The notes under the pieces are model-generated. The model worked only from the letters and a program-made list of their open reading frames with translations, was not told where the DNA came from and made no database searches. A DNA stretch of 56,301 bases from Clostridia bacterium. Its GTDB lineage: Bacteria; Bacillota; Clostridia; Christensenellales; Aristaeellaceae. This document shows positions 158-54,870 of this stretch, piece by piece. Numbering within the stretch: position 1 is the first letter of the stretch; every line of letters begins with the position of its first letter. The stretch lies in NCBI GenBank assembly GCA_017508975.1, contig JAFWQU010000011.1, positions 1 through 56,301 of the forward strand. The letters are read 5' to 3'. A program made the translations under genes and the position numbers.

Positions 158-278
158 AATACCCATTCGCAGTAATGGAATTTCGCGGCCTGCGGGCCGC
201 GACCAGGGCTTTCCGATCGCCCTGGACCTTCGGTCGTGATCTTTCCGATGTCCTGTTACTCTTACATGAGAATTGGAT
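158..278 (+). repeat. Dispersed hairpin repeat, copy A
   Basis: The core at 181-233 has hairpin 1 (CGCGGCC, loop TGCG, GGCCGCG), hairpin 2 (CCAGGGC, loop TTTCCGATC, GCCCTGG) and a small GACC-TTC-GGTC hairpin. Degenerate terminal inverted repeats sit at about 158-172 and 264-278. The right end lies 4 bases from the rmlA stop codon. This is the same family as the other 13 copies listed. Confidence 0.85.
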
Positions 279-282
279 CTTC

Positions 283-1167
283 TCAGTAACGCAGCTTTCC
301 CTCGGCCACCGTGCGCAGGTGGGCGCCGTAGGGGGATTTCCCGTAGCGGTCGACGGAGACCAGCAGCTCCTCGCGGCTGATCCAGCCGTTGTGCCAGGCG
401 ATCTCCTCCGGGGCCGAGATCATAATGCCCTGCCGCTCCTCCACCATGCGGACAAAGTCCGAGGCGTCCAGAAGCGCGTCCATGGTGCCGGTGTCCAGCC
501 AGGCGAACCCGCGTCCCAGCAGCTGCACGTCCAGCAGCTGGTCGTTCAGATACATCTCGTTGAGCGTGGTGATCTCCAGCTCGCCGCGTTTGGAGGGCCT
601 GACCTGCTTCGCGCGCCCGGAGACGCCGCGGGGGTAGAAGTACAGGCCTGTGACCGCGTAGTTTGACTTGGGCTGCGCGGGCTTCTCCTCGATGGAGACG
701 GCGTGCCCCTCCTCGTCGAAGGCGACCACGCCGAAGCGCTCCGGATCCTGCACAAAGTAGCCGAAGACGGTGGCGCGCCCGGCCTCCGCCTGCGCAGCGG
801 CGCAGCGCAGCGCTTTCGCGAAGCCGTTGCCGTAGAAAATGTTGTCGCCGAGCACCATCGCGCAGGGCTCGCTGCCGATAAAGTCCTCGCCCAGAATGAA
901 AGCCTGCGCCAGACCGTCCGGGGAGGGCTGCACACAGTAGCTCAGCGAGAGGCCGAACTGGCTGCCGTCGCCCAGCAGCTGCTCAAAGCGCGGGGTATCG
1001 GTGGGGGTGGAGATGATCAGGATCTCCCGGATGCCCGCGAGCATCAGCGTGGAGAGGGGGTAGTAGATCATGGGCTTGTCGTAGACCGGCAGGAGCTGCT
1101 TGGACGTGACCATGGTCAGCGGATACAGCCGGGTGCCGGCGCCGCCCGCGAGGACGATGCCTTTCAT
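283..1167 (-). CDS. rmlA: Glucose-1-phosphate thymidylyltransferase
   Basis: RmlA joins glucose-1-phosphate and dTTP to give dTDP-glucose, the first step to dTDP-L-rhamnose for cell-surface polysaccharide. The 294 residues match the usual family length. The nucleotide-binding signature [13 protein letters not shown] starts near residue 7, followed by [18 protein letters not shown], the LGDNIFYG metal-binding segment near residue 107 and the EEKP motif near 170. The ATG follows a GGGAGG ribosome binding site, and a consensus promoter lies just upstream at 1200-1228. The segment [19 protein letters not shown] is slightly unlike common RmlA, but the catalytic core is intact. rmlB, rmlC and rmlD are not in the window, so the gene stands alone here; the other dTDP-rhamnose genes must lie elsewhere or beyond the left edge. 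Confidence 0.95.
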
Positions 1168-1199
1168 CGGGAAAACCCTCCCTTCAAACTTGCTTTCCT

Positions 1200-1228
1200 A
1201 TTATACACGACTTTCCCTGCGGTGGCAA
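1200..1228 (-). promoter_or_regulatory. Promoter of rmlA
   Basis: On the minus strand TTGCCA (1223-1228) is followed by a 17-bp spacer and a perfect TATAAT (1200-1205). The initiation point would be near 1193, leaving a short leader that contains the rmlA ribosome binding site. Confidence 0.8.
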
Positions 1229-1243
1229 GTGTGCCGGCGCGGT

Positions 1244-2116
1244 TCATTCCTGCGGCGGCATCGCCTTGGGGAGCGTACCGCTGAAGACGGTCTCCCGCTC
1301 GTCCGAGTGCACGGTCAGCGTGCCGCCCGCGCGGGTCAGGGTGCTGCGCGCGATGTAGAGCCCCATGCCGTGGCCGGAGCCCTTGGTCGTGAAGCCGGGC
1401 TGGAAGATGCTCTCCTGGAGCTCCGGCGGGATCGGGCTGCCATTGTTGGCGATATCGAAGCGATAGCCGTGCAGATCCTCCTCCAGGCGGATCCGCAGCC
1501 GGCGCTCGCCGGAGGTCTCGGCCAGCTTTTCCAGCGCGTTGTCGATCAGATTGGAGAGCACCTTGCACATCTCCCAGCCCTCCAGGGGCAGCTCGCGCCA
1601 GTCGGAGAGGATCTCGAGGGTGACCGGGATGCCGGCCTTCTCGGCGGCGGCGAGCTTGACCTGCAGGAGTGCGTTCACCGCGGGATTCGCGGTCTTCATC
1701 GCCCGGCTGAGGGCGTGGATCTTTCCGTAGACCTGCTCGATATAGCGGTTGGCCTCGGCGTAGTCCTGCATCTCGATCAGGCTGTAGACCACCTGGAGAT
1801 GGTTGAGAAAATCATGCCGCTGGGCGCGCAGGGAGTTGTTCATCGCGGCCATGTTGCGGATGGTGGAGTCCATATCCTCGCTGCGCAGGAGAAGCGAGCG
1901 GGTATTCAGCGCGTCGCGGATGTCGAAATACGCGCCGCTGCTCACGATCAGTGCGGCGATGACCGCAAGCACACGCCCGGAGGTGCGGGTGAGCGTCCGC
2001 GCGTGTCCCATAAAAACCAGCACCAGAATCACCGCCATCATGGCGATCTGCAGGCCGTTGATGACGATGACGAAGATGGTGGTTTTCCGGACCTCGACCG
2101 TCCGGCGCTTATCCAT
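1244..2116 (-). CDS. Orphan sensor kinase, Spo0B-like GHKL
   Basis: This is a membrane-bound histidine kinase of the sporulation-kinase/Spo0B type. Two membrane helices occupy about residues 12-35 and 45-65. A helical hairpin follows with the phospho-acceptor box RAQRHDFLNHLQVV near residue 100. A C-terminal GHKL ATPase domain has the N box NLIDNALEKL, the G1-like DIANNGSPIP and the FTTKGSGHGMGL lid. An upstream GTG is in frame, but I chose the ATG at 2116 because AGGGG lies 8 bases before it. No response regulator lies next to it. It follows the 70-residue gene, separated by repeat copy B. The short sensor region suggests it reads a membrane or cytosolic signal rather than a large extracellular ligand; the signal is unknown. 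Confidence 0.85.
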   Translation of the reverse strand: MDKRRTVEVRKTTIFVIVINGLQIAMMAVILVLVFMGHARTLTRTSGRVLAVIAALIVSSGAYFDIRDALNTRSLLLRSEDMDSTIRNMAAMNNSLRAQRHDFLNHLQVVYSLIEMQDYAEANRYIEQVYGKIHALSRAMKTANPAVNALLQVKLAAAEKAGIPVTLEILSDWRELPLEGWEMCKVLSNLIDNALEKLAETSGERRLRIRLEEDLHGYRFDIANNGSPIPPELQESIFQPGFTTKGSGHGMGLYIARSTLTRAGGTLTVHSDERETVFSGTLPKAMPPQE

Positions 2117-2150
2117 GCGAAACACCCCTCTCGGATTGGTTCGGATGCGT

Positions 2151-2290
2151 CATACCAATCTCAGCTTAGAATGCTTATTGTCAACAGTAAGATTTCGCGG
2201 CCTGCGGGCCGCGACCAGGGCTTTCCGATCGCCCTGGACCTTCGGCTGCATGCTGTAATTTGATTTGCAGCTTTTACTTGCGATCAGCAT
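2151..2290 (+). repeat. Dispersed hairpin repeat, copy B
   Basis: A full-length copy of about 140 bp with the core at 2193-2245. The left inverted repeat CATACCAATCTCAG is at 2151-2164 and the degenerate right one is near 2277-2290. The right end touches the stop codon of the 70-residue gene. Confidence 0.9.
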
Positions 2291-2502
2291 CAGCCCTCGT
2301 CCCCCGCGGCGTAGGCGGCGGAGAGCAGATCGCGGATGGGCAGTGTCAGGCGCTGGGGCGGCCGGATGATATAGAGGCGGACCTGATCCCCCTCCATCGC
2401 CTCGACCACCGCGTTCACCTGCCGGATCTTGCCGTCCGGGTGCATCAGGATGACCCGGATTGCCCGGTCGTGTTCCAGCGAGTAGCGCAGAAAGCGTTCC
2501 AT
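2290..2502 (-). CDS. Small conserved-looking protein, 70 aa
   Basis: Function not recognised. The 70 residues are charged and basic/hydrophobic in alternation (MERFLRYSLEHDRAIRVILM at the start, RPPQRLTLPIRDLLSAAYA near the end), a pattern like a small beta-rich fold. A resemblance to short WYL-type domains is possible but weak. It begins 12 bases after the stop of the GT-C-like gene at 2515, with GGAGGG just before the ATG, so the two are probably co-transcribed. Its stop codon coincides with the end of repeat copy B. The tight coupling is the main argument that it is a real gene. Confidence 0.65.
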   Translation of the reverse strand: MERFLRYSLEHDRAIRVILMHPDGKIRQVNAVVEAMEGDQVRLYIIRPPQRLTLPIRDLLSAAYAAGDEG

Positions 2503-2514
2503 ACCGGCCCTCCT

Positions 2515-4566: not shown

Positions 4567-4588
4567 GGCACCGCCTCCTTTCCCGCCC

Positions 4589-4616
4589 ATTATAGCACAG
4601 GCACGGGCGGCTGCAA
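4589..4616 (-). promoter_or_regulatory. Promoter of GT-C-like gene
   Basis: On the minus strand TTGCAG (4611-4616), a 16-bp spacer and TATAAT (4589-4594) lie just ahead of the AAAGGAGG site and the GTG at 4566. This promoter places the start of the gene downstream of the repeats and argues against the long N-terminal extension. Confidence 0.75.
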
Positions 4617-4647
4617 AGAGGAACGGGACTTCTGAAGAAAACAAGTT

Positions 4648-4796
4648 TAATCTTGTCTCAAGCGAAAGCTGCAAATCAAGCAACAGCATGCACCCGAAGG
4701 TCCAGGGCGATCGGAAAGCCGCCAGTCCGGCCGCGGACCTGGTCGCGGCCCGCAGGCCGCGAAATCTCCCTGTTGACAATAAGCATTCTAAACTGA
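4648..4796 (-). repeat. Dispersed hairpin repeat, copy C (long form)
   Basis: Core at about 4694-4775 in reverse orientation. This copy has about 20 extra bases inside hairpin 2, which themselves form a GTCC/GGAC stem, while the outer CCAGG/CCTGG pairing is kept. Its right end merges directly with the left inverted repeat of copy D, giving a tandem pair. The 4567-5020 interval holds only the promoter at 4589-4616, copies C and D, and the terminator at 4951-4988. Confidence 0.85.
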
Positions 4797-4935
4797 TACC
4801 AATCTCAAGTAAGAAATAAAAATCCAACAACAGCATGTGGCCGAAGGTCCAGGGCGATCGGAAAGCCCTGGTCGCGGCCCGCAGGCCGCGAAATCTCCCT
4901 GTTGACAATAAGCATTCTAAACTGAGATCAGTATG
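4795..4935 (-). repeat. Dispersed hairpin repeat, copy D
   Basis: A canonical 141-bp copy with left inverted repeat GATACCAATCTCAAG (4795-4809) and right CTGAGATCAGTATG (4922-4935). The core at about 4841-4894 is identical in design to copies A, B and F. It is tandem to copy C. Confidence 0.92.
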
Positions 4936-4950
4936 AGACAAGCATTACAC

Positions 4951-4988
4951 AAAAACGGGCGCAGGGGATTGGCCCCAGCGTCCGTTTT
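4951..4988 (-). terminator. Terminator after FGGY kinase
   Basis: On the minus strand a long stem (AAAACGG with CGTTTT on the far side, inner CTGGGG/CCCCTG) is followed by TTTTTGTG. It lies about 30 bases after the stop of the sugar kinase at 5021. Confidence 0.8.
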
Positions 4989-5020
4989 ATAGTATTCCTG
5001 ATACTGGTTTCAGAAAACAA

Positions 5021-10184: not shown

Positions 10185-13100
10185 ATGGGGCTTTCCCGGA
10201 GATGGGGGCTGTGGCTGGCACTGCTGCTGGTCCTGCTGGCGGCGTCCGCGGCGGCGGAGGAGAATCTGCTGATCAATCCCGGCTTTGAGGAGCGGGGAGA
10301 GGAGGGCCTGCCGACCGGCTGGGAGACGGAGGCCTATTTCGGCCTGGACGGCTATACCCTCTACGGCCTCTCCGCCGAGACGCACGAGGGATCCTACAGT
10401 GCGATGCTGCAGAACCTGGACAACAACGACGCGCGCTATTACCAGACGGTCGAGGTGGAGCCGGAGGAGCTATACCGCCTCTCCGGCTGGATCCGCGCGG
10501 AGGGAATCACCCCGACGGGGGAGTGGGGCGCCAATCTCTCCGTCAAAAACCTCTATGTGCACACCGAGGCGATCCGGGACACGGAGGGCGGCTGGCGCTA
10601 TGTCGAGCTCTACGGCGAGACCGGTCCCGGCCAGACGGAGGTCACGGTCTGCGCCCGGCTGGGCGGCTACAGCGGGGAGGTCTCCGGCAAAGCCTGGTTC
10701 GACGATCTCTCCCTGGTCCGCGTGGAGGAGATTCCCGGGGACACGGTGGCCGAGCTCTGGTTCTCGCCGGATTACGACTGGGGAGACGAATCCTGGGAGG
10801 AGACGGACTGGGACGAGGACATGGACGAGCCCCAGCGGGCAGCCTGGCCGATGCTGGTCGGCATCGCGGCGGGCTTTGTCCTGATCGCGCTGCTGCTCTG
10901 GGCCAACCGAAACCGCTTTGACCGGAAAACGGAGGAGAAGGCGTATCCCTGGTTCTGGACCGCGCTGATGCTCCTGGCGGGCCTGGCCGTGCGCCTCTGG
11001 GTCGGAATCCGGGTGGAAGGCTATCCGGTGGATATCAGCTGCTTCACCGCGTGGGGAGAGCGCCTCCTCTCGGTCGGAACCGCGAGGTTCTATCAGGAGG
11101 GCGTTTTCTGCGACTATCCGCCCGCCTACATGCTGGTGCTCGGCCTGGGGCAGCTGTGCGCACGGGCTCTCGGCGGGGGTCGGGCGGTGCAGGTCATGAT
11201 GATCAAGCTCCCGGCCATGCTGGCGGACCTGGGCATCGCGGTCCTGGCCGGACGTGAGGCCCGGAGGCGGCACAGCAGCCGCTTCACCACCGTCTTCCTG
11301 ACGGCGCTCCTGGCCCTGAATCCCCTGATGATCCTCAACAGCGCGGCGTGGGGACAGATCGACTCCGTGCTGACGCTGCTGCTGGTGCTGGTGGCGATCC
11401 TGGCCATGCGGGGACAGTGGCAGGCGGTGCTGCCGGTTTACGTGCTGGCGGTGCTCACCAAGCCGCAGGCGCTGATGCTGGGCTTCCTGGGCCTGGCGGC
11501 GATTGTCGTGGAGGCTGCACGCAACCCGAAGTGCCGGGAGAAGATGCTGATCGGCCTGGGCGCGAGCGCCTGGGTGGCGGCGGGCATCATCGTTCCATTC
11601 GCGATCAACCATCAGCCGGGCTGGCTGATTCAGATCTACAGCGATACCCTGAGCTCCTACCCCTACGCGACGGTCAACGCGTCCAACCTGAACTATCTGC
11701 TGGGCGCAAACTGGAAAGCCCTGACGCTGACCGCGTCGCCCTGGGTGGACGCAGTCCTGGCGCTGCTCTCGGCCGGATGGGGCGCGGCCTGCTGGCTGCG
11801 GGGGCAGAAACGGAAATGGAAGCTTCCCGGGCTGGAACTGTCTCTCTGCGGGGCGTTCTTCCTGTTCTTCCTGCTGTGCATCCCGCTGAAGCTGAGCTGG
11901 CGGGTCATGGGGATCGGCTCCATGGCGCTGGCCTTCGCGGTGGTGCTGCCCCTGTGGCTCCGCTCCACCCGGCTGGAGGATCTGTCCGTCTGCGGGGCGC
12001 TGCTGTTTCTGGTCCTTTTCGCGCTGGGCATCAAGATGCACGAGCGCTATCTCTTCCCGGCGATCGCCTTCCTGGCGCTGGCCTTCGCGATCCGCCGCGA
12101 CTGGCGGTTGCTGCTCGCGCTGCTGCTGGTGAGCGCGGCCATGCTCGTCAATGTGGGCATTCCGCTGGACAACGCGCTCCGGCTGGGCAGCGAGTCCGGC
12201 CATCTCAACAGCGACACGGCGGTTCAGGCCTCTGCCGCGGCGATCATCAACCTGCTGGCGATGGGGCTGACCGCCTGGGCCGCGCTGGACCTGTGCGACC
12301 CGGAGGGGCCGCGGAGCGTCCCGCTCCGCAGCCTGTTGACGGATCCCCAGCCCGCCAGGCCGGACGGCCCCGTCAGAAGGGATCCGCTCCTGCACTGGAG
12401 AAAGCTGGACACCCTGCTGATCCTCGGCATCACCCTTTCGTACAGCGCCGTGGGCCTGTGGAACCTGGGCAGCACCCGCGCGCCGCAGACCTTCTGGACC
12501 TCCTCCAAATCGGACGAACAGGTGATCCTGGACCTGGGGGCGCGCCACGAGGACTTCTCCATGCTCTACTACTGCGGCGTCAGCTATCGGCCCTTCACGG
12601 TGGCCGTGAGCGACGACGGGAAGAGCTGGTCGGAGGAGTACTGGGCGCAGATGGACCAGGGCCAGTGCTTCCGCTGGAAGTACCTTGTGCCCTCCTACGC
12701 CCAGGGCAACGGACAGCGGACCTACTCTTCCAGCCGTGAGTACGGCGGCGTTCAGCTTCTCAGCGGCCGCTATGTCCGGATCAGTGCCCAGCAGACGGCC
12801 CTGCGCCTCGGCGAGGTAATCTTCCGGGAGACTGTGCGGCGCGGGGTGTTCCGCGAGGACGAGGAGACCGGCGAAACCGTGGCGGAGACCCTGCTGGAGC
12901 CCGGCGCGGAGATCCCGGTGACCTTCCTGCGCGGCGCGGGCGGGAACCCGGATTCGCCTTACGCCTCGAGCGGCGCGCTGACCGTGGACGAGCCTGGCAC
13001 CTGCGAGGGGGACCCGGGCTGGTTCAACTCCACCTACTTTGACGAGATCTACCACGCGCGGACCGGGTACGAGCACCTGCACGGCATGACGCCCTACGAG

Positions 13101-18080: not shown

Positions 18081-18150
18081 GACTGATCTCAGTTTAATGC
18101 AGATGATTTAACAGGATTTCGCGCCTGCGGGCGCGGAATCTCTTTCCTGA
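18081..18150 (+). repeat. Degenerate hairpin repeat, copy E
   Basis: The left inverted repeat GACTGATCTCAG starts directly after the epimerase stop. Only hairpin 1 remains (GATTTCGCGCC, loop TGC, GGGCGCGGAATC); hairpin 2 has been lost. The stem is followed by TCTCTTTCC, so on the plus strand it could end transcription between the convergent epimerase and mfd genes. The right boundary is uncertain. Confidence 0.75.
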
Positions 18151-21818: not shown

Positions 21819-21958
21819 CATACGAATCTCAGGCAAAAACTGCCTATTCAGTAACAGCATGCATCCGAAGGTCCAGGGCGATCGGAAAGCCCTGGTCGCG
21901 GCCCGCAGGCCGCGAAATCCCACTCCTGACAATATGCATACGAAACTGAGATCAGTAC
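21819..21958 (-). repeat. Dispersed hairpin repeat, copy F
   Basis: A canonical 140-bp copy: left inverted repeat CATACGAATCTCAG (21819-21832), right CTGAGATCAGTAC (21946-21958), core about 21865-21918. It fills almost all the space between the SRP RNA 3' end and the mfd ribosome binding site, so any mfd promoter must lie in or beyond it. Confidence 0.92.
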
Positions 21959-21976: not shown

Positions 21977-22101
21977 CCGTACCGCTCAGGCTGGGCAATC
22001 CCGCAGCACATCAACCTAATGCTTACTGCTGCTGCCTTCCGGCCCTGACAGGGTTCACACCGGCAAATCGCACGGGACCCAACCTTCATCGCAGATACGG
22101 C
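21977..22101 (-). ncRNA. ffs: Signal recognition particle RNA (small bacterial type)
   Basis: The SRP RNA binds Ffh and targets membrane proteins to FtsY. On the minus strand the apical helix 8 signature is clear: GTCAGGGCCGGAAGGCAGCA, close to the universal GTCAGGTCCGGAAGGAAGCA. The flanking arms GGTTGGGTCCCG and CGGGATTGCCCAGCC pair, and the outermost CCGTA/TACGG pair closes the rod. A promoter lies at 22108-22136, and a T-rich run (TTTTGTTTTG) after the closing stem can serve as terminator. The exact ends are estimated from the pairing. It lies between the zinc-ribbon gene and mfd. The wider 21801-22165 interval contains only this RNA, its promoter and repeat copy F. Confidence 0.93.
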
Positions 22102-27493: not shown

Positions 27494-27651
27494 CATGCTG
27501 ATCTCTTGCAAAACGACAGATCAGACAACGGTATGCGACCGAAGGTCCAGGGCGATCGGAAAGCCGCCAGTCCGGCTGCGGACCTGGTCGCGGCCCGCAG
27601 GCCGCGAAATCTCTCAGTTGACATTTGGCACACGCAGTTGAGATCAGGATC
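27494..27651 (-). repeat. Dispersed hairpin repeat, copy G (long form)
   Basis: A copy of about 158 bp with the same 20-base expansion of hairpin 2 as copy C. Left inverted repeat CATGCTGATCTC (27494-27505), right TTGAGATCAGGAT (27638-27650). It fills the space between the dnaG start and the stop codon of the dGTPase-like gene. Confidence 0.9.
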
Positions 27652-29125: not shown

Positions 29126-29130
29126 TGCGC

Positions 29131-29285
29131 GTATACTGTTTTCAGAAATAATACAAATCAAAAAACGGCATGTGACCGAAGGTCCAGGGCGATCGAAAAG
29201 CCGCCAGTCCGGCTGCGGACCTGGTCGCGGCCGAAGGCCGCGAAATCGCGCTATTGCAAATACACATGAAAATGAGATCAACATG
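29131..29285 (-). repeat. Dispersed hairpin repeat, copy H (long form)
   Basis: A copy of about 155 bp with the expanded hairpin 2. Hairpin 1 keeps its 8-bp stem, but the loop is GAA instead of CGCA. The left inverted repeat GTATACTGTTTTCAG is at 29131-29145 and the right AATGAGATCAACATG is near 29271-29285. It lies between the secG and yebC terminators, in a convergent spacer. Confidence 0.88.
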
Positions 29286-39943: not shown

Positions 39944-40669
39944 ATGAGAAAAAGGATCTGCCTGGGGCTGGTTCTGCTGCTCTGCTGGATGAGCTGCGCG
40001 GGGGCGGAGATCGTCTCCTTCGACTACGCGTACTCCACCGATCTTCCGACGGTCCACTATGAGATCTTCCGACTGGGGGACACGCCCTGCCTCTGGCGGG
40101 ACCGGACGCTCGCGCAGCCGGTGGACGCAGAAACCCTGGTGGCGCTGGAGGAGATCGTGGAGCGCTTCGAGATGCGTTCCTGGGACGGCTTCGACCGGTC
40201 GAATCCCTATGTGATGGACGGTGAGATGTTCCGCCTGGACATCGTGTTCGCCGACGGGACCGAGGTGCACGCCACCGGAGACAACGCCTTTCCGCAGCAC
40301 TATCGGGAGGCGGTCGCGGCGATCACCACTCTGCTCCAGGATCTCCCGGAGGAGTCCGACGGGACGGTCCCCGGCACCTACCGCTACGAAGGCGAAGGCT
40401 TCGGCGGCGACTTCACCCTCACCCTGCTGGAGGATGGCACTTACACCTTTTACGAGGGTCTGCTCAGCAGCTACATGGGAGGCGGGGAGTGGAGCATGGA
40501 ACAGCGATTCATCTACCTGAGCGAGGCAAACGGCCTGTCTCTCTACAATACGCTGATTCCGATGAAGGACACGCTGGTCTTCGTCGCGGAGGGCTCCGAT
40601 GGTTTCCTCTACGTGCAAGTCCCAGACGGCGGACGCTTCGTCAGAGTCCAGGATACAGCGTCAGAGTAA
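39944..40669 (+). CDS. Secreted protein of unknown function
   Basis: Not recognised. It has 241 residues with a signal peptide (about 1-21; the sequence LLCWMSCAGAE could also be read as a poor lipobox). An alpha/beta-rich body follows, with many acidic residues and aromatic residues, and a second half (about 145-241) that looks like a small beta-barrel sheet (FGGDFTLTLLEDGTYTFYEG, WSMEQRFIYLSE), similar in style to lipocalin or DUF-type stress proteins. It follows the hydrolase by 13 bases with GAGGAGG before the ATG, so it is probably the last gene of the feo transcript. The stop is followed 3 bases later by repeat copy I. Confidence 0.75.
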   Translation: MRKRICLGLVLLLCWMSCAGAEIVSFDYAYSTDLPTVHYEIFRLGDTPCLWRDRTLAQPVDAETLVALEEIVERFEMRSWDGFDRSNPYVMDGEMFRLDIVFADGTEVHATGDNAFPQHYREAVAAITTLLQDLPEESDGTVPGTYRYEGEGFGGDFTLTLLEDGTYTFYEGLLSSYMGGGEWSMEQRFIYLSEANGLSLYNTLIPMKDTLVFVAEGSDGFLYVQVPDGGRFVRVQDTASE

Positions 40670-40672
40670 TCA

Positions 40673-40810
40673 GATACCGGTCTCAGTATCGTGTGCAAAT
40701 GTCAGCAGAGGATTTCGCGGCCTGCGGGCCGCGACCAGGGCTTTCCGATCGCCCTGGACCTTCGGTTACATGCTTTAGCTGGATTTGGAATTCTTACTTG
40801 AGATTGGTAT
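40673..40810 (+). repeat. Dispersed hairpin repeat, copy I
   Basis: A canonical 138-bp copy with left inverted repeat GATACCGGTCTCAG and right CTTGAGATTGGTAT, the clearest terminal inverted repeats of the family. Core about 40713-40765. It is joined head-to-tail with copy J. The interval 40670-41150 holds only copies I, J and K and the flavodoxin terminator. Confidence 0.95.
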
Positions 40811-40950
40811 GATACCGATCTCAGTATCGTGTGCAAATGTCAGCAAAGAGTTTTCGCGGCCTGCGGGCCGCGACCAGGGCTTTCCGATCGCCCTGGACCT
40901 TCGGTCACATGCTGCTGCTGGATTTGCAGTTTTAGTATGAGAACAGTGTT
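40811..40950 (+). repeat. Dispersed hairpin repeat, copy J
   Basis: Left inverted repeat GATACCGATCTCAG starts exactly where copy I ends. Core about 40853-40904. Copies I and J share the first 25 bases almost exactly (GATACC-GTCTCAGTATC region and GTGTGCAAATGTCAGC), which suggests recent duplication. The right end is near 40950, though a second inverted-repeat-like stretch CTTGAGATTGGCA follows at 40952-40964. Confidence 0.88.
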
Positions 40951-40965
40951 GCTTGAGATTGGCAA

Positions 40966-41095
40966 CAGACTAATCTTCCATTCCCATCAAAACACAGACT
41001 CCTCCAAAAAAGTGCATTGCCGAAGGTCCAGGGCGATCGGAAAGCCCTGGTCGCGCCCGCAGGCGCGAAATCCTTCTGTGAAAAACCATACATTT
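40966..41095 (-). repeat. Dispersed hairpin repeat, copy K (short stem)
   Basis: Core at about 41030-41071 in reverse orientation to I and J. Hairpin 1 is the short form (TCGCGCC, CGCA, GGCGCGA). Outer boundaries are uncertain because the inverted repeats are eroded. Confidence 0.75.
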
Positions 41096-41110
41096 GAAAA
41101 ATCTCTACAT

Positions 41111-41148
41111 AAAAGGGACATCGGCTCAAAGCGCCAATGTCCCTTTTG
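41111..41148 (-). terminator. Terminator after flavodoxin gene
   Basis: On the minus strand AAAAGGGACAT and ATGTCCCTTTT pair around an 16-base loop and are followed by a T-containing stretch. It starts 3 bases after the flavodoxin stop. Confidence 0.85.
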
Positions 41149-41150
41149 CG

Positions 41151-41564
41151 TTATTCTTCCACAATCTGCTTCGCAAACGTCGCGGCGGCCTTACAGTCCT
41201 CCTCATTGGGACGACCCTTGTGCGCGCCCTTGAACTGCCCCTTGCAGTGGAACTCCCGCGGCTCCATCGGGATGCCCACGCGGTCGGCCTCGGCCTTGAC
41301 CTTCCTGTAGGTGGAGTTCAGCATCGCCGCAGAGCCGAAATTGACAATCCTGCAGACCTTGTCCTTCTCCAGACTCCGCACGAAATTCCGCACCTCCGGA
41401 TCGATGGTGAAGGCGTAATAGGAGTTTCCGAGAAAGAGGATGTCCACCGGCTCCCGGATGGGCTCGCTGATGGGCAGCGCCTCCGCGCCCACCGCCGCGG
41501 CGACGGCCTCCGCGAGACGCTTGGTGTTGCCTGTCTTGGTGTAGTAACGGACTGCGATTTTCAT
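41151..41564 (-). CDS. Flavodoxin-like protein
   Basis: A 137-residue flavodoxin-family protein. The FMN phosphate loop YYTKTGNTKRLAEAV is near residue 8, LFLGNSYYAF near 45 and VNFGSAAMLNSTYRK near 75. It could carry electrons or act as an NAD(P)H-flavin reductase partner. It is somewhat shorter than classical flavodoxins. The ATG follows AAAGGAG. It stands alone with its own terminator; repeat copy L lies directly upstream. Confidence 0.88.
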   Translation of the reverse strand: MKIAVRYYTKTGNTKRLAEAVAAAVGAEALPISEPIREPVDILFLGNSYYAFTIDPEVRNFVRSLEKDKVCRIVNFGSAAMLNSTYRKVKAEADRVGIPMEPREFHCKGQFKGAHKGRPNEEDCKAAATFAKQIVEE

Positions 41565-41581
41565 GAGATAATGCTCCTTTC

Positions 41582-41705
41582 GTATCAGCCGAGTTTATAG
41601 TATATTCAGCAGAAGGGTTTCGCGCCTGCGGGCGCGACCAGGGCTTTCCGATCGCCCTGGACCTTCGGGAACGAACCTCTTTTGTAGAAGTATAGGGTTT
41701 GGTTG
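41582..41705 (+). repeat. Dispersed hairpin repeat, copy L (short stem)
   Basis: Core at about 41618-41670 with the 7-bp hairpin 1 (TCGCGCC, TGCG, GGCGCGA) and canonical hairpin 2. The left edge begins 3 bases beyond the flavodoxin ribosome binding site; both inverted repeats are eroded, so the ends are approximate. Confidence 0.8.
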
Positions 41706-41721
41706 AAAAATGAATGATGAA

Positions 41722-42162
41722 TCACGTGTCGATCCGGATCAGTTCGGAGAGGGCGCGGTTGCGGTAGAGAACGTCTTCCCGGGCGGTGAAGCCGTTCTTC
41801 TCCCAGAAGGCGTTCCCGATCTCGTTGCGGCGGAACACCAGCAGCGCGGTCTTGTGGATGTCCTCGGCCTTCAGGGCCGCGAGACAGCAGTTCAGCAGCG
41901 CGGAGCCGATGCCCTGCCCCCGGAAGGCCTCCGCGACACACATGTGGTGGATGAACCCGCGCCGCCCGTCGTGCCCGCAGAGGACCACGCCGACCACGGC
42001 GTCTCCCTCCACGGCCACGAAGGAGGTGGCTGGGTTGCGCCGCAGATACCGCGCAATGCCCTCCCGAGAATCGTCCACGTTGTTGAAGCCCATGTTTTTG
42101 CTGGACATCCAGAGCGCCCAGACAGAATCATAGTCCTCCATGGTCATGGTGCGGATGGTCAT
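41722..42162 (-). CDS. GNAT N-acetyltransferase
   Basis: A 146-residue GNAT-fold acetyltransferase that uses acetyl-CoA. The acetyl-CoA loop GQGIGSALLNCCL (Q/RxxGxG/A type) is near residue 82, preceded by the beta strand MCVAEAFR; the C-terminal FWEKNGF near 120 is typical. The substrate is unknown. It starts 21 bases after the phosphotransferase gene (stop at 42184) with AAAGGAGGC before the ATG, so they are likely co-transcribed. The pairing of an acetyltransferase and a phosphotransferase is suggestive of small-molecule modification. Confidence 0.88.
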   Translation of the reverse strand: MTIRTMTMEDYDSVWALWMSSKNMGFNNVDDSREGIARYLRRNPATSFVAVEGDAVVGVVLCGHDGRRGFIHHMCVAEAFRGQGIGSALLNCCLAALKAEDIHKTALLVFRRNEIGNAFWEKNGFTAREDVLYRNRALSELIRIDT

Positions 42163-42183
42163 GAAGCCGCCTCCTTTGGTTTG

Positions 42184-42966
42184 TCAGAAGAGTTCATCCA
42201 ACAGCAGATAGTACCGCAGCCGCTCCCGGTCCAGGGGAACCCCGGCCGCGCGGAAGAGGTCGTCCGGGTGGATATCCGGGTAGATTTTTCCGTAGTGTCC
42301 GTCGCTGTTGTGCTTCAGGCTCCGCCAGCCCAGCGACAGGTCGCGCCAGGGGTCGGCGACGCCGCAGCTGCCCAGGTCGATGATGCCGGAGAGGCGCACG
42401 CCGTCCGTGAAGAGATTCGGCAGGCAGAAATCCCCGTGGGTGAGGACGAGGTGCTCCTGCGGCTTGTTCTCACGCAGCCACGCCAGCAGGGCCGGCGGGT
42501 CCCGGAAACCGTTGGGACCGAAGGTCTCCGGCTCACAGTCGGAGGGATCGTAGGTGCCGTCACGGATCGCCTTCTCCGCCTGCGCGAACTCGTCCTCGAG
42601 TGTCCGCCGGGAGGGGAAATCCTCGCATGGGATTTCCCAGAACCGGTGCAGGGCCTCCGCCATGCAGTCCAGCAGGAGCGCAGGTTTCCGCATCACCGCG
42701 GGATCGCAGAGCATCTGCCCCCGCACCCGGGTCATCAGCAGCCAGTCCTGTCCGTCCTCGACCGCGTGTGCGGCGATCTCCGGCACCGGAAGCCTGCCCC
42801 GGAGCCACGCAAGCACGTCGACGTCCCGAACCTCCCAGCTGTCGGCGGGGCGGATCTTCAGCACATAGTCCGGGAAGAGCAGCACCTGCGCGCGGGATTT
42901 GCCGGTGCTGTCCGGCTGACAGGCGGCATCGCCCAGCACGGCGGCGATTTCGGAAGGATAGGTCAT
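42184..42966 (-). CDS. Aminoglycoside phosphotransferase-like kinase (APH(3')-type)
   Basis: A 260-residue kinase of the APH family. The ATP lysine is in YVLKI (Lys37), the Brenner-type HGDFCLPN gives catalytic Asp179 and Asn184, and IIDLGSCGVADPWRD gives the metal-binding Asp197. The spacing and HGDxCLPN / IDxGxxGxADxxxD pattern match APH(3') enzymes, which phosphorylate the 3'-OH of kanamycin-type drugs. Resistance is inferred, not shown; such genes also serve other small-molecule substrates. ATG 42966 follows GAGGAGG. Repeat copy M lies 15 bases upstream. Confidence 0.85.
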   Translation of the reverse strand: MTYPSEIAAVLGDAACQPDSTGKSRAQVLLFPDYVLKIRPADSWEVRDVDVLAWLRGRLPVPEIAAHAVEDGQDWLLMTRVRGQMLCDPAVMRKPALLLDCMAEALHRFWEIPCEDFPSRRTLEDEFAQAEKAIRDGTYDPSDCEPETFGPNGFRDPPALLAWLRENKPQEHLVLTHGDFCLPNLFTDGVRLSGIIDLGSCGVADPWRDLSLGWRSLKHNSDGHYGKIYPDIHPDDLFRAAGVPLDRERLRYYLLLDELF

Positions 42967-42981
42967 GAGGATTCCTCCTCT

Positions 42982-43120
42982 CATGCCAATCTCAAAGTAA
43001 AACAACAAATCCAGCAACAGCATGTGGCCGAAGGTCCAGGGCGATCGGAAAGCCCTGGTCGCGCCCGCAGGCGCGAAATCCCACTACTGACAATAAGCAT
43101 CCTAAACTGAGATTAGTATC
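42982..43120 (-). repeat. Dispersed hairpin repeat, copy M (short stem)
   Basis: A 139-bp copy with left inverted repeat CATGCCAATCTCA and right CTGAGATTAGTATC; core about 43028-43080 with the 7-bp hairpin 1. The right inverted repeat contains the stop codon of the double acetyltransferase gene, and the left end lies at the ribosome binding site of the phosphotransferase gene. Confidence 0.93.
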
Positions 43121-44162
43121 AGAGCTTCATCTCCAGATACCTGCGGAAGACGGAGAAGCCCGCCGCCTCGTAGAAGGCCAGGGCACCGCGGTTGAACTCC
43201 CACATGTTCAGCTCCAGCCGCCGGAATCCCTGCTCCTGCGCGTACGTCCGGATGAAGCGGATCATTTCCGAGGCGACGCCCCGGCGGCGGAAGGCCTTGT
43301 CCACGCCGAACTCATCGATGTCCAGGTAGTCGCGCTCGAACATGAAGGGGTTCTCCGGCCGCGTGATATGATTCAGCACCGCGAAGCCGCAGACCGCGCC
43401 GTCCGCCTCCGCGACCACGAAAGCCTGCCGGGGATCCCGCCAGATGACCTGTAGATAATCCCGCAGCTCGCCGCCGAAGCCGGGCTTGAAGACCTCCGGC
43501 TTGCCGGCCACGTGCAGCTCGTTGACCTGCCGGCGCAGCTCGTTGACACGGGGCAGGTCCTCCTCCCGGGCGAGACGGACGCTCACGGAGGCAGGCGACG
43601 GCGGGGCGGGCGGAGTCCGGTCGTCGCGGATCGCCGCGTACCAGACCTCGTCGCAGATGCCCAGGTTATTCCTGCCTGCTCTGCGGAGAATGCCCTCGAA
43701 CTTCATGCCGGCCTTCTGCATCACGCGGCCGGACTTGGGATTGTTCACATCGTGGCAGGCGGCCACCCGGTTGAGTCCCACGGTGTCGAACAGATAGTCC
43801 ATGACCGCCCGCAGAGCCTCCGGCATGATGCCGCGGCCCCAGAAAGCCCTGCTCATGCAGTAGCCGATGTCCGCGGCTTCCTTTGTCTCATCCAGCTTCA
43901 CCACGGCGATGCTGCCGATGACGCTGCCGGTCTCCTTCCACTCGATTCCCCAGTTGAAGAAGCTGCCGTTGGGGTACTGCGCGATCCAGCTCTGCAGCAC
44001 CGCGCGGGTGACCTCGACGCCCGCGTGGACCGGCCAGGTCAGAAAGCGGGTCACCTCCGGGTCCGAGGCCCAGTGGTTATACATATCCTCCGCGTCCTCG
44101 ATCCGGAAGGGTCTCAGGATCAGGCGGTGTGTCTCGATGCGCTGCGTTCCGGTTTTGTTCAT
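43119..44162 (-). CDS. Two-domain GNAT acetyltransferase fusion
   Basis: A 347-residue protein with two acetyltransferase domains. The N-terminal one (about 1-180) is RimJ/RimL-like: ETHRLILRPFRIEDAEDM, then GYCMSRAFWGRGIMPEAL for CoA binding, and GMKFEGILRRA. A proline-rich linker (TPPAPPSPAS, about 184-193) leads to a second GNAT (about 194-347) with DKAFRRRGVASEMIRFI as CoA loop and FYEAAGF. Both loops look intact, so both may be active. Only a weak ribosome binding site precedes the ATG. The stop codon lies in the inverted repeat of copy M. Confidence 0.85.
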   Translation of the reverse strand: MNKTGTQRIETHRLILRPFRIEDAEDMYNHWASDPEVTRFLTWPVHAGVEVTRAVLQSWIAQYPNGSFFNWGIEWKETGSVIGSIAVVKLDETKEAADIGYCMSRAFWGRGIMPEALRAVMDYLFDTVGLNRVAACHDVNNPKSGRVMQKAGMKFEGILRRAGRNNLGICDEVWYAAIRDDRTPPAPPSPASVSVRLAREEDLPRVNELRRQVNELHVAGKPEVFKPGFGGELRDYLQVIWRDPRQAFVVAEADGAVCGFAVLNHITRPENPFMFERDYLDIDEFGVDKAFRRRGVASEMIRFIRTYAQEQGFRRLELNMWEFNRGALAFYEAAGFSVFRRYLEMKL

Positions 44163-48623: not shown

Positions 48624-48650
48624 GGCCGACCTCCTCTCCTCCGGTAAATC

Positions 48651-48659: not shown

Positions 48660-48682
48660 ATATTTGTCAATGCCCGGGAAGG

Positions 48683-48711: not shown

Positions 48712-48796
48712 ATATAGCGACCTGGATGCTGTCGGTCCGTTGAAAGGATAGCATCCGCAGATGAACTCAATACGAAGTGGGAAAGGTGGCTTTTCG

Positions 48797-50278
48797 ATGC
48801 GTCAGAGCGGTGTTTTGATGCACATCTCCTCCTTGCCCGGGCCGGACGGCATCGGCAGTCTGGGTCCGGAAGCCTATGCGTTCGCGGATTTCCTGCACAA
48901 GAGCGGCATGAACATCTGGCAGGTGCTGCCGATGGGTCCGACGGGCTACGGCGAGTCCCCCTACCAGTCCACCAGCGTCTTCGCGGGAAACCCGCTGCTG
49001 ATCTCCATCGACCGGCTGGCGGAGCAGGGACTCCTGGTGCTGCACCCGGAGGAGCGCTTTGTGCCGGAGAACCCGGAGCAGGTGGACTTCCCGGCGGTCC
49101 GCGCGCACAAGATGAAGCTCCTGCGGGAGAGCTTCTGCCGCTCGGAGAACGCGCTCAAGGAGAAAATGCGCGCCTTCGAGCAGGAGAATCCCTGGGCCTG
49201 TGACTTCGCGCTGTTCACCGCGATCAAGGAGCACTACGGCAACGCGCTGTGGACCCAATGGCCGAACGTGCACGCGCGCCTGCGCCGGCCGGACGCGCTG
49301 CGGAAACTGCGCATCGAGCTGAGCGAGGAGATCAGCTTCCACCGGTGGTGCCAGTATATCTTCGCGCAGCAGTGGCAGGACCTGAAGCATTACTGCAACG
49401 ACCTCGGCATCCTGATGCTGGGGGACATGCCCATCTACTGCGCAGAGGACAGCGCGGACACCTGGACGCACCCGGAGGTCTTCCAGCTGGACCGCAACGG
49501 CGTGCCGAAGCGCATCGCGGGCGTACCGCCGGACTACTTCTCCGAGGACGGACAGCTCTGGGGCAATCCGCTCTACCGCTGGACCTGGCTGCGGCTGCAC
49601 AAATACGGCTGGTGGGTGGACCGCATGCGGCACATGGCGAAGATGTACGACATCGTGCGCGTGGACCACTTCATCGGCTTTGCGAATTACTACTCAGTGC
49701 CCCACGGCGCGGAAAACGCCCGCGGCGGCCGCTGGATCATCGGCCCCGGCAAGCATCTCTTCGACCGGCTGAACCAGGTGCTGCCCGGGCTGGACATCGT
49801 GGCGGAGGACCTGGGCGAGGTGAACGACCGGGTTCGCGAGCTGGTGGCCTACACCGGATATCCGGGCATGAAGGTGCTGACCTTCGCCTTCGGGGGCAAG
49901 GAGGAGAACATGCACCTGCCGGAAAACATCCCGGAGAACACCGCCTACTACACCGGCACCCACGACAACGCCACGGCGCTGGCCTGGGCAGAGGACGCCT
50001 CGGATGAGGAGATCAAGTTCGCGGCGAAGCACATCGGCTTCAAGACCCGCAAGGAGGCGCCCTGGGCGCTGATCCAGGCGGTCATGAAGAGCTGCGCGCG
50101 CATCGCGGTGGTACCGATGCAGGATATCCTGGAGCTGCCCGGCTGGGCCACCATGAACCACCCGGGCATCCTGGGCGGCAACTGGCTGTGGCGCATGAAG
50201 CCCGGCGCGGCTACCGACGAGATCGCCGAAAAGCTCAATAAGCTCAACAAGGCGAGCCACAGGGGGAATCCCGCATGA
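48797..50278 (+). CDS. malQ: 4-alpha-glucanotransferase
   Basis: MalQ (amylomaltase, GH77) transfers glucan chains between maltodextrins, making them good substrates for phosphorylase. The 493 residues start RQSGVLMHISSLPG, a family hallmark, with RVDHFIGF (nucleophile Asp near 290), AEDLGEV (acid/base Glu near 337), GTHDNATALAW (Asp near 390) and the terminal GNWLWRM. An earlier ATG at 48761 is in frame, but alignment and the AAAGGTGG site favour 48797. It overlaps glgP by 4 bases (ATGA). Confidence 0.94.
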   Translation: MRQSGVLMHISSLPGPDGIGSLGPEAYAFADFLHKSGMNIWQVLPMGPTGYGESPYQSTSVFAGNPLLISIDRLAEQGLLVLHPEERFVPENPEQVDFPAVRAHKMKLLRESFCRSENALKEKMRAFEQENPWACDFALFTAIKEHYGNALWTQWPNVHARLRRPDALRKLRIELSEEISFHRWCQYIFAQQWQDLKHYCNDLGILMLGDMPIYCAEDSADTWTHPEVFQLDRNGVPKRIAGVPPDYFSEDGQLWGNPLYRWTWLRLHKYGWWVDRMRHMAKMYDIVRVDHFIGFANYYSVPHGAENARGGRWIIGPGKHLFDRLNQVLPGLDIVAEDLGEVNDRVRELVAYTGYPGMKVLTFAFGGKEENMHLPENIPENTAYYTGTHDNATALAWAEDASDEEIKFAAKHIGFKTRKEAPWALIQAVMKSCARIAVVPMQDILELPGWATMNHPGILGGNWLWRMKPGAATDEIAEKLNKLNKASHRGNPA

Positions 50279-52611: not shown

Positions 52612-52661
52612 ATGTGAAACACGGATCCAATCGGCTCCGGAACACAGGGAGGAGGATTTCC

Positions 52662-53195
52662 ATGACGAACATCTGGCACGACATCAGCCCCCACCGCATC
52701 ACCCCCGATGACTTCATTGCGGTGATCGAGATCGAGAAGGGCTCCAAGAACAAGTATGAGCTCGACAAGGAGACCGGGCACATCATTCTGGACCGCATTC
52801 TCTATACGTCCACGCACTATCCGGCGAACTACGGCCTGATCCCGCGCACCTACGCGGACGACCACGATCCGCTGGACGTGCTGGTGGTCTCCAGCGAGTC
52901 CATCGCGCCGCTGAGCCTGGTGCGCTGCTATCCGATCGGCGTGATCAACATGCAGGACCAGGGCATGATGGACGAGAAGATCATCGCGATTCCCTTCAAT
53001 GACCCGACCTACAACGGCTACCATTCGATCCACGAGCTGCCGGTCCACATCTTCGAGGAGATGCGCCACTTCTTCTCGGTCTACAAGAGCCTGGAGGAGA
53101 AGACCACGGTGGTCAACGAGGTGCAGGGACCGGAGGAGGCCCGGGAGGTCATCCGCCACTGCCTGGACGCCTACGTGGACAAATTCTGCAGATGA
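52662..53195 (+). CDS. ppa: Inorganic pyrophosphatase (family I)
   Basis: A family I soluble pyrophosphatase that hydrolyses PPi to phosphate. The 177 residues include IEIEKGSKNKYELDKETG near 24, the metal-binding DDHDPLDVLVV near 66 and DEKIIAIPFNDP near 105. The ATG at 52662 follows GGGAGGAGG. It sits in the malQ-glgP run, 50 bases after glgP, and could supply phosphate for the phosphorylase, though the link may be only positional. Confidence 0.93.
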   Translation: MTNIWHDISPHRITPDDFIAVIEIEKGSKNKYELDKETGHIILDRILYTSTHYPANYGLIPRTYADDHDPLDVLVVSSESIAPLSLVRCYPIGVINMQDQGMMDEKIIAIPFNDPTYNGYHSIHELPVHIFEEMRHFFSVYKSLEEKTTVVNEVQGPEEAREVIRHCLDAYVDKFCR

Positions 53196-53204
53196 GGTGC
53201 GGCC

Positions 53205-54743
53205 ATGCGGCAGTATGAGACGTTTGAACTGCGCTTCCAGGGCAAGGTGCTCCAGCGGGACTGGTCCGGGGTGGACCTGACGGCGGAGTTCGTGTGGGGA
53301 GACCGGCGGCGGATCGTCAAGGGCTTCTACGACGGCGACGGACAGTACGTGGTGCGCTTTCTGCCGCAGGCCAGCGGCGTCTACACCTGGCGCGTGACCG
53401 GCGCGGTGACGGCGCAGGGCTTCGAGCGCTGTCTGCCCGCGGAGCCGGGCGCGCACGGCCTTGTGCGGGCGGTCGGAACGCATTTTCAGTATGACGACGG
53501 AACCCGCTATTTGCCATTCGGAACCACGGTGTACGCGCTGGCGCACCAGGAGGACGCCCTCGTCGAGGAGACCCTGGAGAGCCTGCGCAATGCGCCCTTC
53601 AACAAGGTGCGCCTGTGCGTCTTCCCCAAGGACTACGACTACAATCACAACGAGCCGCCCTGCTATCCCTTTCACCGGCGGCAGGACGGGAGCTGGGACT
53701 GCGGCCGGCCGGAGCCTGTGTTCTGGAGGCGGCTGGAGGACATTCTGCACCGGATCGGCGCGCTGGGGATCCAGGCGGATCTGATCCTGTTCCACCCCTA
53801 TGATCGCTGGGGTTTCGCGTCGTTCTCCCAGAGGGACAATCTGCGCTATCTCGACTACCTGCTCCGGCGCTTCTCGGCGATCCCGAACCTGTGGTGGTCG
53901 CTGGCCAATGAGTACGACCTGTGCATGGGCAGCAATAGCCTTTCGGACTGGGAGGAGATCGAGCGCGCGGTGGCGGAGCACGATCCCTACGGTCATCTGC
54001 TCTCATGTCACAACTGCTTCGCGCTGTGGGACTTCAGCCATCCGGCGGTGACCCACGCGAGCATCCAGACCCGGGCGCTGACGGAGATCCCGCGCTGGAT
54101 CCACACCTGGGGCAAGCCGGTGGTGATCGACGAGTGCTGCTATGAGGGGAACCTGCCGCACGCCTGGGGGAATATCTCCGGGCGGGAGATGGTGCGCCGT
54201 TTCTGGCGCTGCTGCGCGAGCGGCGCTTACTGCACGCACGGCGAGACTTTCCTGTCGGAAGACGAGGTGCTCTGGTGGGCAAAAGGCGGCAAGCTGAAAG
54301 GGGAGAGCGTGGAGCGGATCGCGTTCCTGCGCTGGATCCTGGAGCGCCTGCCGGGACCGCTGGAACCCCTGACCCAGGGATGGCAGAAGCTGACCGAGAT
54401 GGCGCCGGAGTCGATCGCCCGCGCGGCGGACGCGGTGCCAGACTGGCAGAAGCTCTTCTACCGCAGCGCCGCCCGCATGAGCGACCAGAACCGCTGGGCG
54501 CAGTTGGCCGGGGAGCACATCTGGGCCGCCCACTGCGGGGAGGATGCCTTTCTCTGGTTCAACGACCAGCAGTGCTGCGCCGAGCAGCGCATCAGTCTTC
54601 CCAAGGACAAGCGCTACCGGGTGGAACTCCTGGATCCCTGGGAGATGACGGTGACTCCGCTCGCCGACAGCGTCAGCGGAGACATCACCCTGCGTATGCC
54701 CGGCCGGGAGGATCTCGCGCTGCTGGCGGTGAGGGTTGGGTGA
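53205..54743 (+). CDS. DUF5060/DUF4038 glycoside hydrolase-like protein
   Basis: A 512-residue protein resembling uncharacterised glycoside hydrolases with an N-terminal DUF5060 beta domain (about 1-90) and a TIM-barrel domain of DUF4038 type (about 95-400), plus a C-terminal beta domain (about 430-512). Clan GH-A-like positions are visible: SLANEYD (Asn235-Glu236, likely acid/base) and VVIDE (Glu310, likely nucleophile). There is no signal peptide, so it likely acts inside the cell on imported oligosaccharides. It starts 9 bases after ppa with weak GAGGTG before the ATG, and closes the malQ-glgP-ppa run. Substrate unknown. Confidence 0.8.
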   Translation: MRQYETFELRFQGKVLQRDWSGVDLTAEFVWGDRRRIVKGFYDGDGQYVVRFLPQASGVYTWRVTGAVTAQGFERCLPAEPGAHGLVRAVGTHFQYDDGTRYLPFGTTVYALAHQEDALVEETLESLRNAPFNKVRLCVFPKDYDYNHNEPPCYPFHRRQDGSWDCGRPEPVFWRRLEDILHRIGALGIQADLILFHPYDRWGFASFSQRDNLRYLDYLLRRFSAIPNLWWSLANEYDLCMGSNSLSDWEEIERAVAEHDPYGHLLSCHNCFALWDFSHPAVTHASIQTRALTEIPRWIHTWGKPVVIDECCYEGNLPHAWGNISGREMVRRFWRCCASGAYCTHGETFLSEDEVLWWAKGGKLKGESVERIAFLRWILERLPGPLEPLTQGWQKLTEMAPESIARAADAVPDWQKLFYRSAARMSDQNRWAQLAGEHIWAAHCGEDAFLWFNDQQCCAEQRISLPKDKRYRVELLDPWEMTVTPLADSVSGDITLRMPGREDLALLAVRVG

Positions 54744-54769
54744 GACGGCCTCTTCGTCGCTGGCGTGAC

Positions 54770-54870
54770 ATCTCCTCAGCAAGCTGGGGCAACAGAGAGG
54801 TTCCGCGCCTGCGGGCGCGGCCAGAGGCTTTCCGATCGCCTCTGGACTCTTCGGGTGCACTCTTTTGGAG
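54770..54870 (+). repeat. Dispersed hairpin repeat, copy N (divergent)
   Basis: Core at about 54800-54857. Both stems differ from other copies but stay paired: hairpin 1 CCGCGCC/GGCGCGG and hairpin 2 CCAGAGGC/GCCTCTGG with the same TTTCCGATC loop, then ACTC-TTC-GGGT. Terminal inverted repeats are not recognisable, so the ends are rough. It lies just after the glycoside-hydrolase-like gene. Confidence 0.8.

Follow-up and report, generated by a model that had tools for sequence, protein, structure and literature searches.

The stretch of DNA considered here, which we call the window, is positions 1–56,301 of contig JAFWQU010000011.1 of the Clostridia metagenome-assembled genome (MAG) GCA_017508975.1, labelled G000, and it is populated by a short structured repeat, a miniature inverted-repeat transposable element (MITE) built around a conserved core. 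This core is not specific to the MITE of the window (type I below): MITEs whose ends are different also contain it, and phage contigs have it on its own. Judging from its covariation, we consider it very probable that the core is a pseudoknot that travels as cargo, with less assurance about the names of the insertion sequence (IS) families that we attach to its carriers. The reading of the whole, as a MITE family that carries a portable pseudoknot element for transcript 3′ ends, seems to us about evenly balanced, and a function of the core itself at transcript 3′ ends or cistron boundaries is plausible at a little less than even strength. Our fullest proposal is more tentative again: a portable pseudoknot that would control the 3′ ends of genes has been exchanged between gut phages and at least three MITE families of unrelated ends in their hosts, and its linker acts as a third strand that reads the stem base by base.

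Each family of short repeats in bacteria is commonly attributed to a single transposase, and here it is the module that is constant and the transposons that are variable. Since the structured core stays the same while the transposons change, some function of the module is likely; its phage copies lie close behind identified genes, which makes a function testable, and the match between stem and third strand supplies a natural data set on loops that line a helix groove. If the proposal is true, this would be a natural folding code absent from the literature that we found; indeed, the open-access titles and abstracts that our searches listed contain no recognisable description of the motif. Our sources are MAGs and viral contigs with simple gene calls, and exact-pattern searches fix parts of the motif.

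Is the core a pseudoknot?

A 15-mer of the core, allowing one mismatch, occurs at 350 places in this incomplete MAG (26 contigs, 1.52 Mb, 66% complete) against 1 for a reversed-pattern control, and the terminus GATACCAATCTCAG of the type I MITE, allowing two mismatches, occurs 124 times against 0 for its control. A search of the genome by covariance model and by the 14-bp termini had been proposed in a first-pass annotation of the window, and both counts bear out the repeat family that it described.

On the strand used by that annotation, which we call the motif strand, the core begins with a foot, [C/G]CGA, followed by an A, a linker (L1) of 3–6 nt and the 5′ strand of a hairpin stem (P2) ending in GGC; then come a 9-nt loop, GA[T/C]CG[G/C]AAA, the GCC and remaining 3′ strand of P2, and usually a second hairpin (P3). 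The loop of P2 pairs with the foot. Across related genomes the stem varies freely yet stays paired, and loop and foot persist; because foot and loop covary, as do the two sides of the stem, we read the core as an H-type pseudoknot.

In an alignment of 41 of the 53 distinct MAG cores, six of the nine stem pairs vary on both sides, and the covariation score is 0.409 against 0.133 when shuffled (0/500) and at most 0.138 when slid, although a stem of 6 bp or more had been a condition for entry into this alignment. The phage copies, in which no pairing beyond GGC/GCC was selected for, are therefore the better test: in 57 hand-picked copies 98.4% of stem positions are paired, with a score of 0.476 against 0.164 (0/500), and 96 of 107 distinct copies have at least four stem pairs beyond the fixed GGC/GCC. 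In addition, the first base of the foot changes with the loop, CCGA accompanying CGG and GCGA accompanying CGC. The exceptions in the MAG set are one GCGA with CCGG, one TCGA and 13 copies without a recognised foot; in phages, where the search pattern permitted mismatches, the base is complementary to its loop partner in 106 of 107 copies (17 as G:C).

P3 can be missing: of 456 distinct copies, 84 have no P3 of at least 5 bp. In the other 372 the loop is mostly C(CGCA)G (271 copies), some of the 372 being the extra hairpin of a long-core variant. This variant, at window positions 4693–4764, 27538–27610 and 29175–29245, carries a hairpin GTCCGgctGCGGAC within P2 beside the loop. A closing helix, P1 (CAACAG/CTGTTG), around P2 and P3 seemed convincing by eye but is not claimed, its mean length being 5.01 against 4.82 when shuffled (maximum 5.04). 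As a separate observation, in one other genome, G099, some cores are chimeric (L171, L172): a different hairpin (CTGTCCGG..GGACAG) replaces everything 5′ of CGATCGG in 27 of 154 typed cores, some of them counted twice.

Does the linker read the stem?

L1 lies between foot and stem, and each of its bases faces one pair of P2, offset by one and counted from the loop outward. For example, GGT goes with ..AGGGC, GGAGT with ..AGAGGGC and GGTTT with ..AAAGGGC. Over the 30 MAG types in which the stem is formed and the foot complements the loop, 4.1 of 5 positions match, as against 3.05 when shuffled (z=7.7, 0/20000), and other offsets give z of at most 1.4. The 33 new phage types, which were unused in discovery, give 4.79 against 3.70 (z=7.5, 0/10000), or z=6.2 (0/5000) when shuffled within equal lengths; offset 2 is weak here (z 2.9). 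In the first five positions of all 45 phage types, a stem G faces G 164 times, A once and T twice, part of this count being built in by a search pattern that fixes the first two L1 bases as G, and at the A positions, which are free, a stem A faces T 37 times, A 13 times and never G or C. A stem C faces C six times and T twice. A rule of plain mirror identity scores nearly as high (z 7.5 versus 7.7 in the MAG types, 9.7 versus 9.8 over all phage types) and matches fewer positions (4.07 versus 4.76), because a stem A mostly faces T.

A code of G on G-C, with A or T on A, is that of the antiparallel purine-motif triplex. This is also the polarity with which L1 would run across the deep groove of P2 if the fold is an H-type pseudoknot.

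Where do phages keep the core?

Exact-pattern searches of IMG/VR contigs give matches in 45 and 86 stretches, which reduce to 107 distinct copies. These stand alone, without a MITE, and a P3-like hairpin follows in 7 of 47; six of the 107 fall inside gene calls, and for another 17 there is no stop in the nearest 300 bp. Relative to the motif strand, the nearest upstream gene is antisense in 59 cases and sense in 25 (p=0.0003), and the antisense copies peak at 20–29 bp from the gene (26/59), the sense ones being scattered. On the transcribed strand, a same-sense stop codon is present between −12 and +60 of the stem start in 47 of the 107 copies; here the distance from stop to stem has a median of 4 nt (26 at 0–10 nt, 11 at exactly 0, six overlapping the stop), and the median distance to the next start codon is 61.5 nt.

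The upstream genes were scanned for 30 of the 59 antisense copies, and 24 are structural or packaging genes: ten for the major head protein, six portal, two terminase, two tape measure, two major tail, one baseplate and one neck (a weak match). The rest are one primase and five unknown or unmatched. Since these genes are mostly structural, the carriers are tailed phages in which the element tends to mark the ends of late genes. Unverified human faecal phage records also carry the core, with covariance-model matches in all three that were fetched.

In the host genome, copies less than 100 bp from a stop are antisense in 42 cases and sense in 19 (p=0.004, for a cut chosen post hoc), and 37 copies lie between convergent genes and 14 between divergent ones, the background being 36 and 40 (Fisher p=0.006).

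What might the core do?

We propose that in most phage copies the mRNA bears the complementary strand, and would thus present a stop codon, a few nucleotides and a GC-rich hairpin with the loop UUUCCGAUC, past which come the linker and then UUCGG, closing the pseudoknot. So compact a fold might block 3′ exonucleases or attenuate transcription behind highly expressed genes. A MITE with the core inside it could then insert downstream of genes at small cost, or even with benefit, which would favour repeated amplification; phages would keep the module at the ends of capsid genes and further structural genes, and host MITEs would have seeded hundreds of copies.

Several observations weigh against this proposal. 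Lacking a U-tract, the element is no ordinary terminator. In phages, 60 of the 107 copies have no same-sense stop between −12 and +60, 25 of the 84 with a stop in reach lie in sense orientation, and some proximity to stops is to be expected from short intergenic gaps, our counts being uncorrected for gene packing. The host MITE copies, taken over 400 bp, are antisense in 80 cases and sense in 67, with no clear strand preference, and the fourth foot–loop pair (A:T) is missing in 9 of the 41 aligned MAG copies. Finally, the near-equal score of the mirror rule detracts from the L1 code, and the code itself seems closer to a DNA triplex of the purine-motif type, formed on the opposite strand, than to any known RNA motif.

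This last point raises the question of which strand matters, the position of the phage copies favouring an RNA complementary to the motif and the L1 code apparently favouring the motif strand as DNA. On a DNA-level explanation, which we think unlikely, single-stranded DNA of the motif would fold as the H-type pseudoknot, L1 occupying the major groove of P2 as its third strand (G.G-C, A.A-T, T.A-T), and the triplex would be recognised by a replication, recombination or transposition factor. The 164 of 167 stem Gs that face G, the restriction of stem A to T or A and the prevalence of the C(CGCA)G loop in P3 are consistent with such an element; a DNA signal, however, has no need to be positioned by stop codons or biased to one gene strand, as the phage copies are, and the mirror rule tells against the triplex as well.

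Is the core only a passenger?

A plain MITE with neutral cargo, its core conserved through recent expansion or gene conversion, is a simpler explanation that we consider quite improbable. Hundreds of near-identical cores, and mosaic copies with exchanged arms, speak for it, yet the cores persist where the arms do not. A search of our own stretches of the MAG with the left arm alone, allowing up to 14 mismatches in 37, retrieves 61 elements, of which 58 have a perfect core 15-mer and three have one mismatch; with the right arm alone there are 70 matches, comprising 61 perfect cores, two with one mismatch, five with P3 only and two with a core in the opposite orientation. In its own genome, then, the core stays intact where the MITE arms have decayed. 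(An earlier comparison of core and arm identities, 0.98–0.996 versus 0.48–0.76, was biased by the choice of copies by their core, and selection by arm alone replaces it.) Neutral cargo also fits poorly with the same loop recurring in different MITEs and phages while the stems change with compensation.

One locus of the host genome, L174:144-790, has two tandem cores (at 144 and 201) just upstream of a gene, from 296, for a LoaP-like NusG paralogue (NF033641, E 9e-12, yet 45 bits against a cut-off of 125), adjoining an IS1380 transposase relic. LoaP binds a UNCG hairpin in leaders, according to the accessible part of PMC12691694, and the core might be a recruitment site for such a specialised paralogue in antitermination. 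We dropped this link as very improbable, given that just one of the two homologues in the sampled loci adjoins cores and that few copies lie between divergent genes (14, compared with 37 between convergent ones).

What moves the core?

The type I MITE was studied in 20 stretches of its own MAG plus the window (447 kb), with 145 scorable cores. Its terminal inverted repeat (TIR) is TACCAATCTCA, and the inverted termini noted in the first-pass annotation hold for complete copies, both ends being present in 49 of the 145, the left alone in 24, the right alone in 13 and neither in 59. Two-ended copies are mostly 134–138 or 151–155 bp long; in the few at 116–130 bp an end is probably misassigned. 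At the flanks, the N of a 3-bp TNA is identical on both sides in 34 of the 49, compared with a shuffled mean of 14.8 and a maximum of 26 in 5000; T and A hardly vary and carry no information, and there is no signal beyond the triplet. Because N matches so much more often than expected, we conclude that complete copies transposed with a 3-bp TNA duplication, and the single TCA that the tandem copies at 40675–40948 have in common is expected for insertion into a duplicated target. Mosaic copies with swapped arms occur, as do palindromic elements of right arm and P3 alone (L024:5208-5321 and 11495-11598).

No transposase for TACCAATCTCA ends was found in the MAG, which is 66% complete, and none stands at the eight terminus-like sites without a nearby core in the sampled quarter of it. 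A DDE transposase of PF01609 type was rejected as the mover, the sole PF01609 match in the MAG being the IS1380 relic. Mobilisation in trans, as the first-pass annotation had suggested, thus remains likely. Its idea of looking for empty sites yielded weak support only, from one gene pair in the genus: 12 genomes match the gene, some very weakly, and of the ten other loci read, two fall short of the region and G752 alone has the neighbouring gene, where a core is absent. In G754 a pair of cores is present at a distance of about 1 kb, and G138 has one core elsewhere.

Other MITEs carry the core in other genomes. In G099, head-to-head pairs spaced by less than 350 bp account for 61 of the 108 pairs of neighbouring cores, and they lie in an element of 272–352 bp with ends GGTTCTTCACG... 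Over 22 distinct elements its 8-bp flanks have an identity of 0.636 against 0.322 (0/5000), with a peak at 8, and an 8-bp target duplication is a property of the ISL3 family. A similar end, with 11 identical bases plus GGGAAA, lies in the window's own MAG beside a fragment of an ISL3 transposase (PF01610, E 1.6e-8; L231); the 11-base match alone is not significant (BLAST E 2.7). PF01610 was not found in G099 itself, and no larger element with a gene between paired cores is listed there at spacings of 350–4500 bp.

In G032 and G033, single cores occupy elements of 180–223 bp whose ends are CAG[AC]CTGTCAAAAA and similar. Both ends are present in 17 of the 26 copies listed, although the list names two places twice. 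One contig of G032 (L236) encodes a 483-aa IS1182 transposase (NF033551, 440 bits, cut-off 270) and starts with a 15/16 match to this MITE end, which alone has a BLAST E of 0.53; PF13751 has matches in 4 of 14 genomes, and G033 and G032 have the largest numbers of them. By eye, these IS1182-like MITEs (L217–L224) often lie between near-identical terminator-like hairpins, as if a hairpin had been duplicated on insertion. In G024 the cores are in mosaic inverted pairs.

The first-pass annotation likened the repeat to a MITE crossed with repetitive extragenic palindromes (REP) and bacterial interspersed mosaic elements (BIME). The MITE half stands for complete copies, by virtue of TIR and 3-bp TNA, and the REP half stands as a resemblance, through the inverted core pairs. 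A true REP/BIME system moved by a Y1 or REP-associated tyrosine transposase (RAYT), for which that annotation had suggested a search, is scarcely credible: the head-to-head pairs of G099 would suit it, and PF01797 is found in 7 of 20 genomes searched (four of the seven being among the 12 core-bearing ones), yet the domain is absent from the other 13, including the four highest-copy genomes G000, G099, G024 and G033 (each with at least 90 exact cores; G032 was outside this search), the pairs lie within an element that has its own TIR and 8-bp duplication, and the GT[AG]G guide foot of REPs is absent, the feet being CCGA or GCGA apart from the exceptions above.

How far does the core extend?

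A covariance model, R1, finds the core in 8 of 248 genomes of the order, five of them in the family (the window's own included), and in 1 of 391 across the class, again its own, these surveys scoring only the best candidates per genome. The order-level matches include G339, where a single contig has four copies, and a further two genomes with weak matches (E 5e-4 and 7e-4) whose sequences are without the loop. The exact core 15-mer is present in 22 of 150 family genomes, at least three of which rest on a single match without a foot (L033, L040, L042). Among the matches listed (at least 77 stretches of named genomes), most are Clostridia MAGs, many of them labelled omasum or rumen, with one labelled Ruminococcus and one Bacteroidales MAG (L107). 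The contig G339:C25, in a MAG of another family, has its four cores of the G099 kind. Binning error or transfer is possible both for G339 and for L107.

Which copies are in the window?

The at least 14 copies reported for 56 kb, in both orientations, are borne out as 13 core copies at E≤0.0011 in the covariance model, the best match below that having E=0.15, and one core-less fragment (Table 1). That all copies are intergenic is nearly right: by our simple gene caller 145 of 149 sampled cores lie outside called genes (ten of the 145 at stretch ends) and four inside. One window core, at 43040, is inside a gene call, 41710–43110, that is probably over-extended.

Table 1. Copies of the repeat in the window
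Feature	Positions	Strand	Match and remarks
Core copy (pseudoknot hairpin P2 and P3), decayed arms	178–233	−	E 3.9e-8; outer ends approximate
Type I MITE with core, TGA on both flanks	2153–2289	−	E 2.2e-8
Type I copy, long core (extra hairpin in P2), decayed left end, tandem with the 4797 copy	4656–4796	+	E 5.4e-5
Type I MITE, target duplication TGA/TGA	4797–4933	+	E 1.2e-8
Partial copy: right arm and P3 hairpin, no pseudoknot core	18082–18143	−	BLAST
Type I MITE, flanks TCA / CAA (duplication not intact)	21821–21957	+	E 2.4e-8
Type I copy, long core, TCA on both flanks (read from sequence)	27496–27649	+	E 5.1e-5
Type I copy, long core, decayed termini	29130–29284	+	E 0.0011; ends approximate
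Type I MITE, tandem with the 40813 copy, one TCA shared; other flank TCT	40675–40809	−	E 1.7e-8
Type I MITE copy	40813–40948	−	E 9.3e-9; outer end approximate
Core without MITE termini	41019–41073	+	E 2.4e-8
Core without MITE termini	41606–41669	−	E 9e-9
Type I MITE, target duplication TCA/TCA	42984–43118	+	E 6e-9
Second core type (L1 GAGT, stem CCAGAGGC), without type I termini	54797–54862	−	E 6.4e-10; outer ends approximate

Rfam agrees with the first-pass annotation, which had recognised no named family: in the window its sole match above the gathering score is the signal recognition particle (SRP) RNA, with none to the repeat copies, window positions 40600–43200 give five matches up to E=5, all far under their gathering scores, and eight phage loci give no match. 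The SRP RNA, of the bacterial small type, is at 21986–22084 (−), about 30 bp from a MITE copy. A large serine recombinase (PF07508, PF13408, PF14287) is encoded at 55026–56285 (−), close to the core copy at 54797–54862.

How does the element compare with known systems?

Like MITEs of IS families, the ISL3-like and IS1182-like kinds among others, the carriers are short, with TIRs, many copies and, where tested, target duplications of fixed length; unlike them, they have as their interior a conserved pseudoknot module common to unrelated ends, and not a decayed transposon. The T-phi terminator of phage T7 is a hairpin behind the major capsid gene, and the phage copies likewise place a hairpin directly behind the most expressed late gene, whereas the present element has no U-tract, has a pseudoknot and is found behind portal, terminase and tail genes too.

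REP/BIME elements (REPINs) with their RAYT are, as far as the consulted part of PMC6006769 goes, also small intergenic hairpins in inverted pairs, with hundreds of copies and a conserved 5′ foot. Here, in contrast, the foot, [C/G]CGAAGG, pairs with the loop and is not GT[AG]G, and spread is explained by MITE ends wherever this is testable, RAYT being absent from those four searched genomes that have the most copies. The CGTC-tagged REPs share with our element abundant short palindromes, an unpaired tag and the lack of a dedicated transposase; their tag, loop and stem rules differ, and the sections of PMC3733652 consulted describe no pseudoknot.

A likeness to the L1 code is seen in the intrastrand purine-motif triplex repeats (TM/PIT), which, in the portion of PMC4666352 available, are also repeated intergenic DNA with a third-strand code of the G.G-C type. 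The search that defined them took stems of 6–15 nt, and a third strand of 3–6 nt falls short of three arms of at least 6 nt each. In addition, and again from that portion of PMC4666352, TM is of the order Y-R-R with consensus arms of 9 nt, whereas the element described here is R-R-Y and couples its third strand to a pseudoknot.

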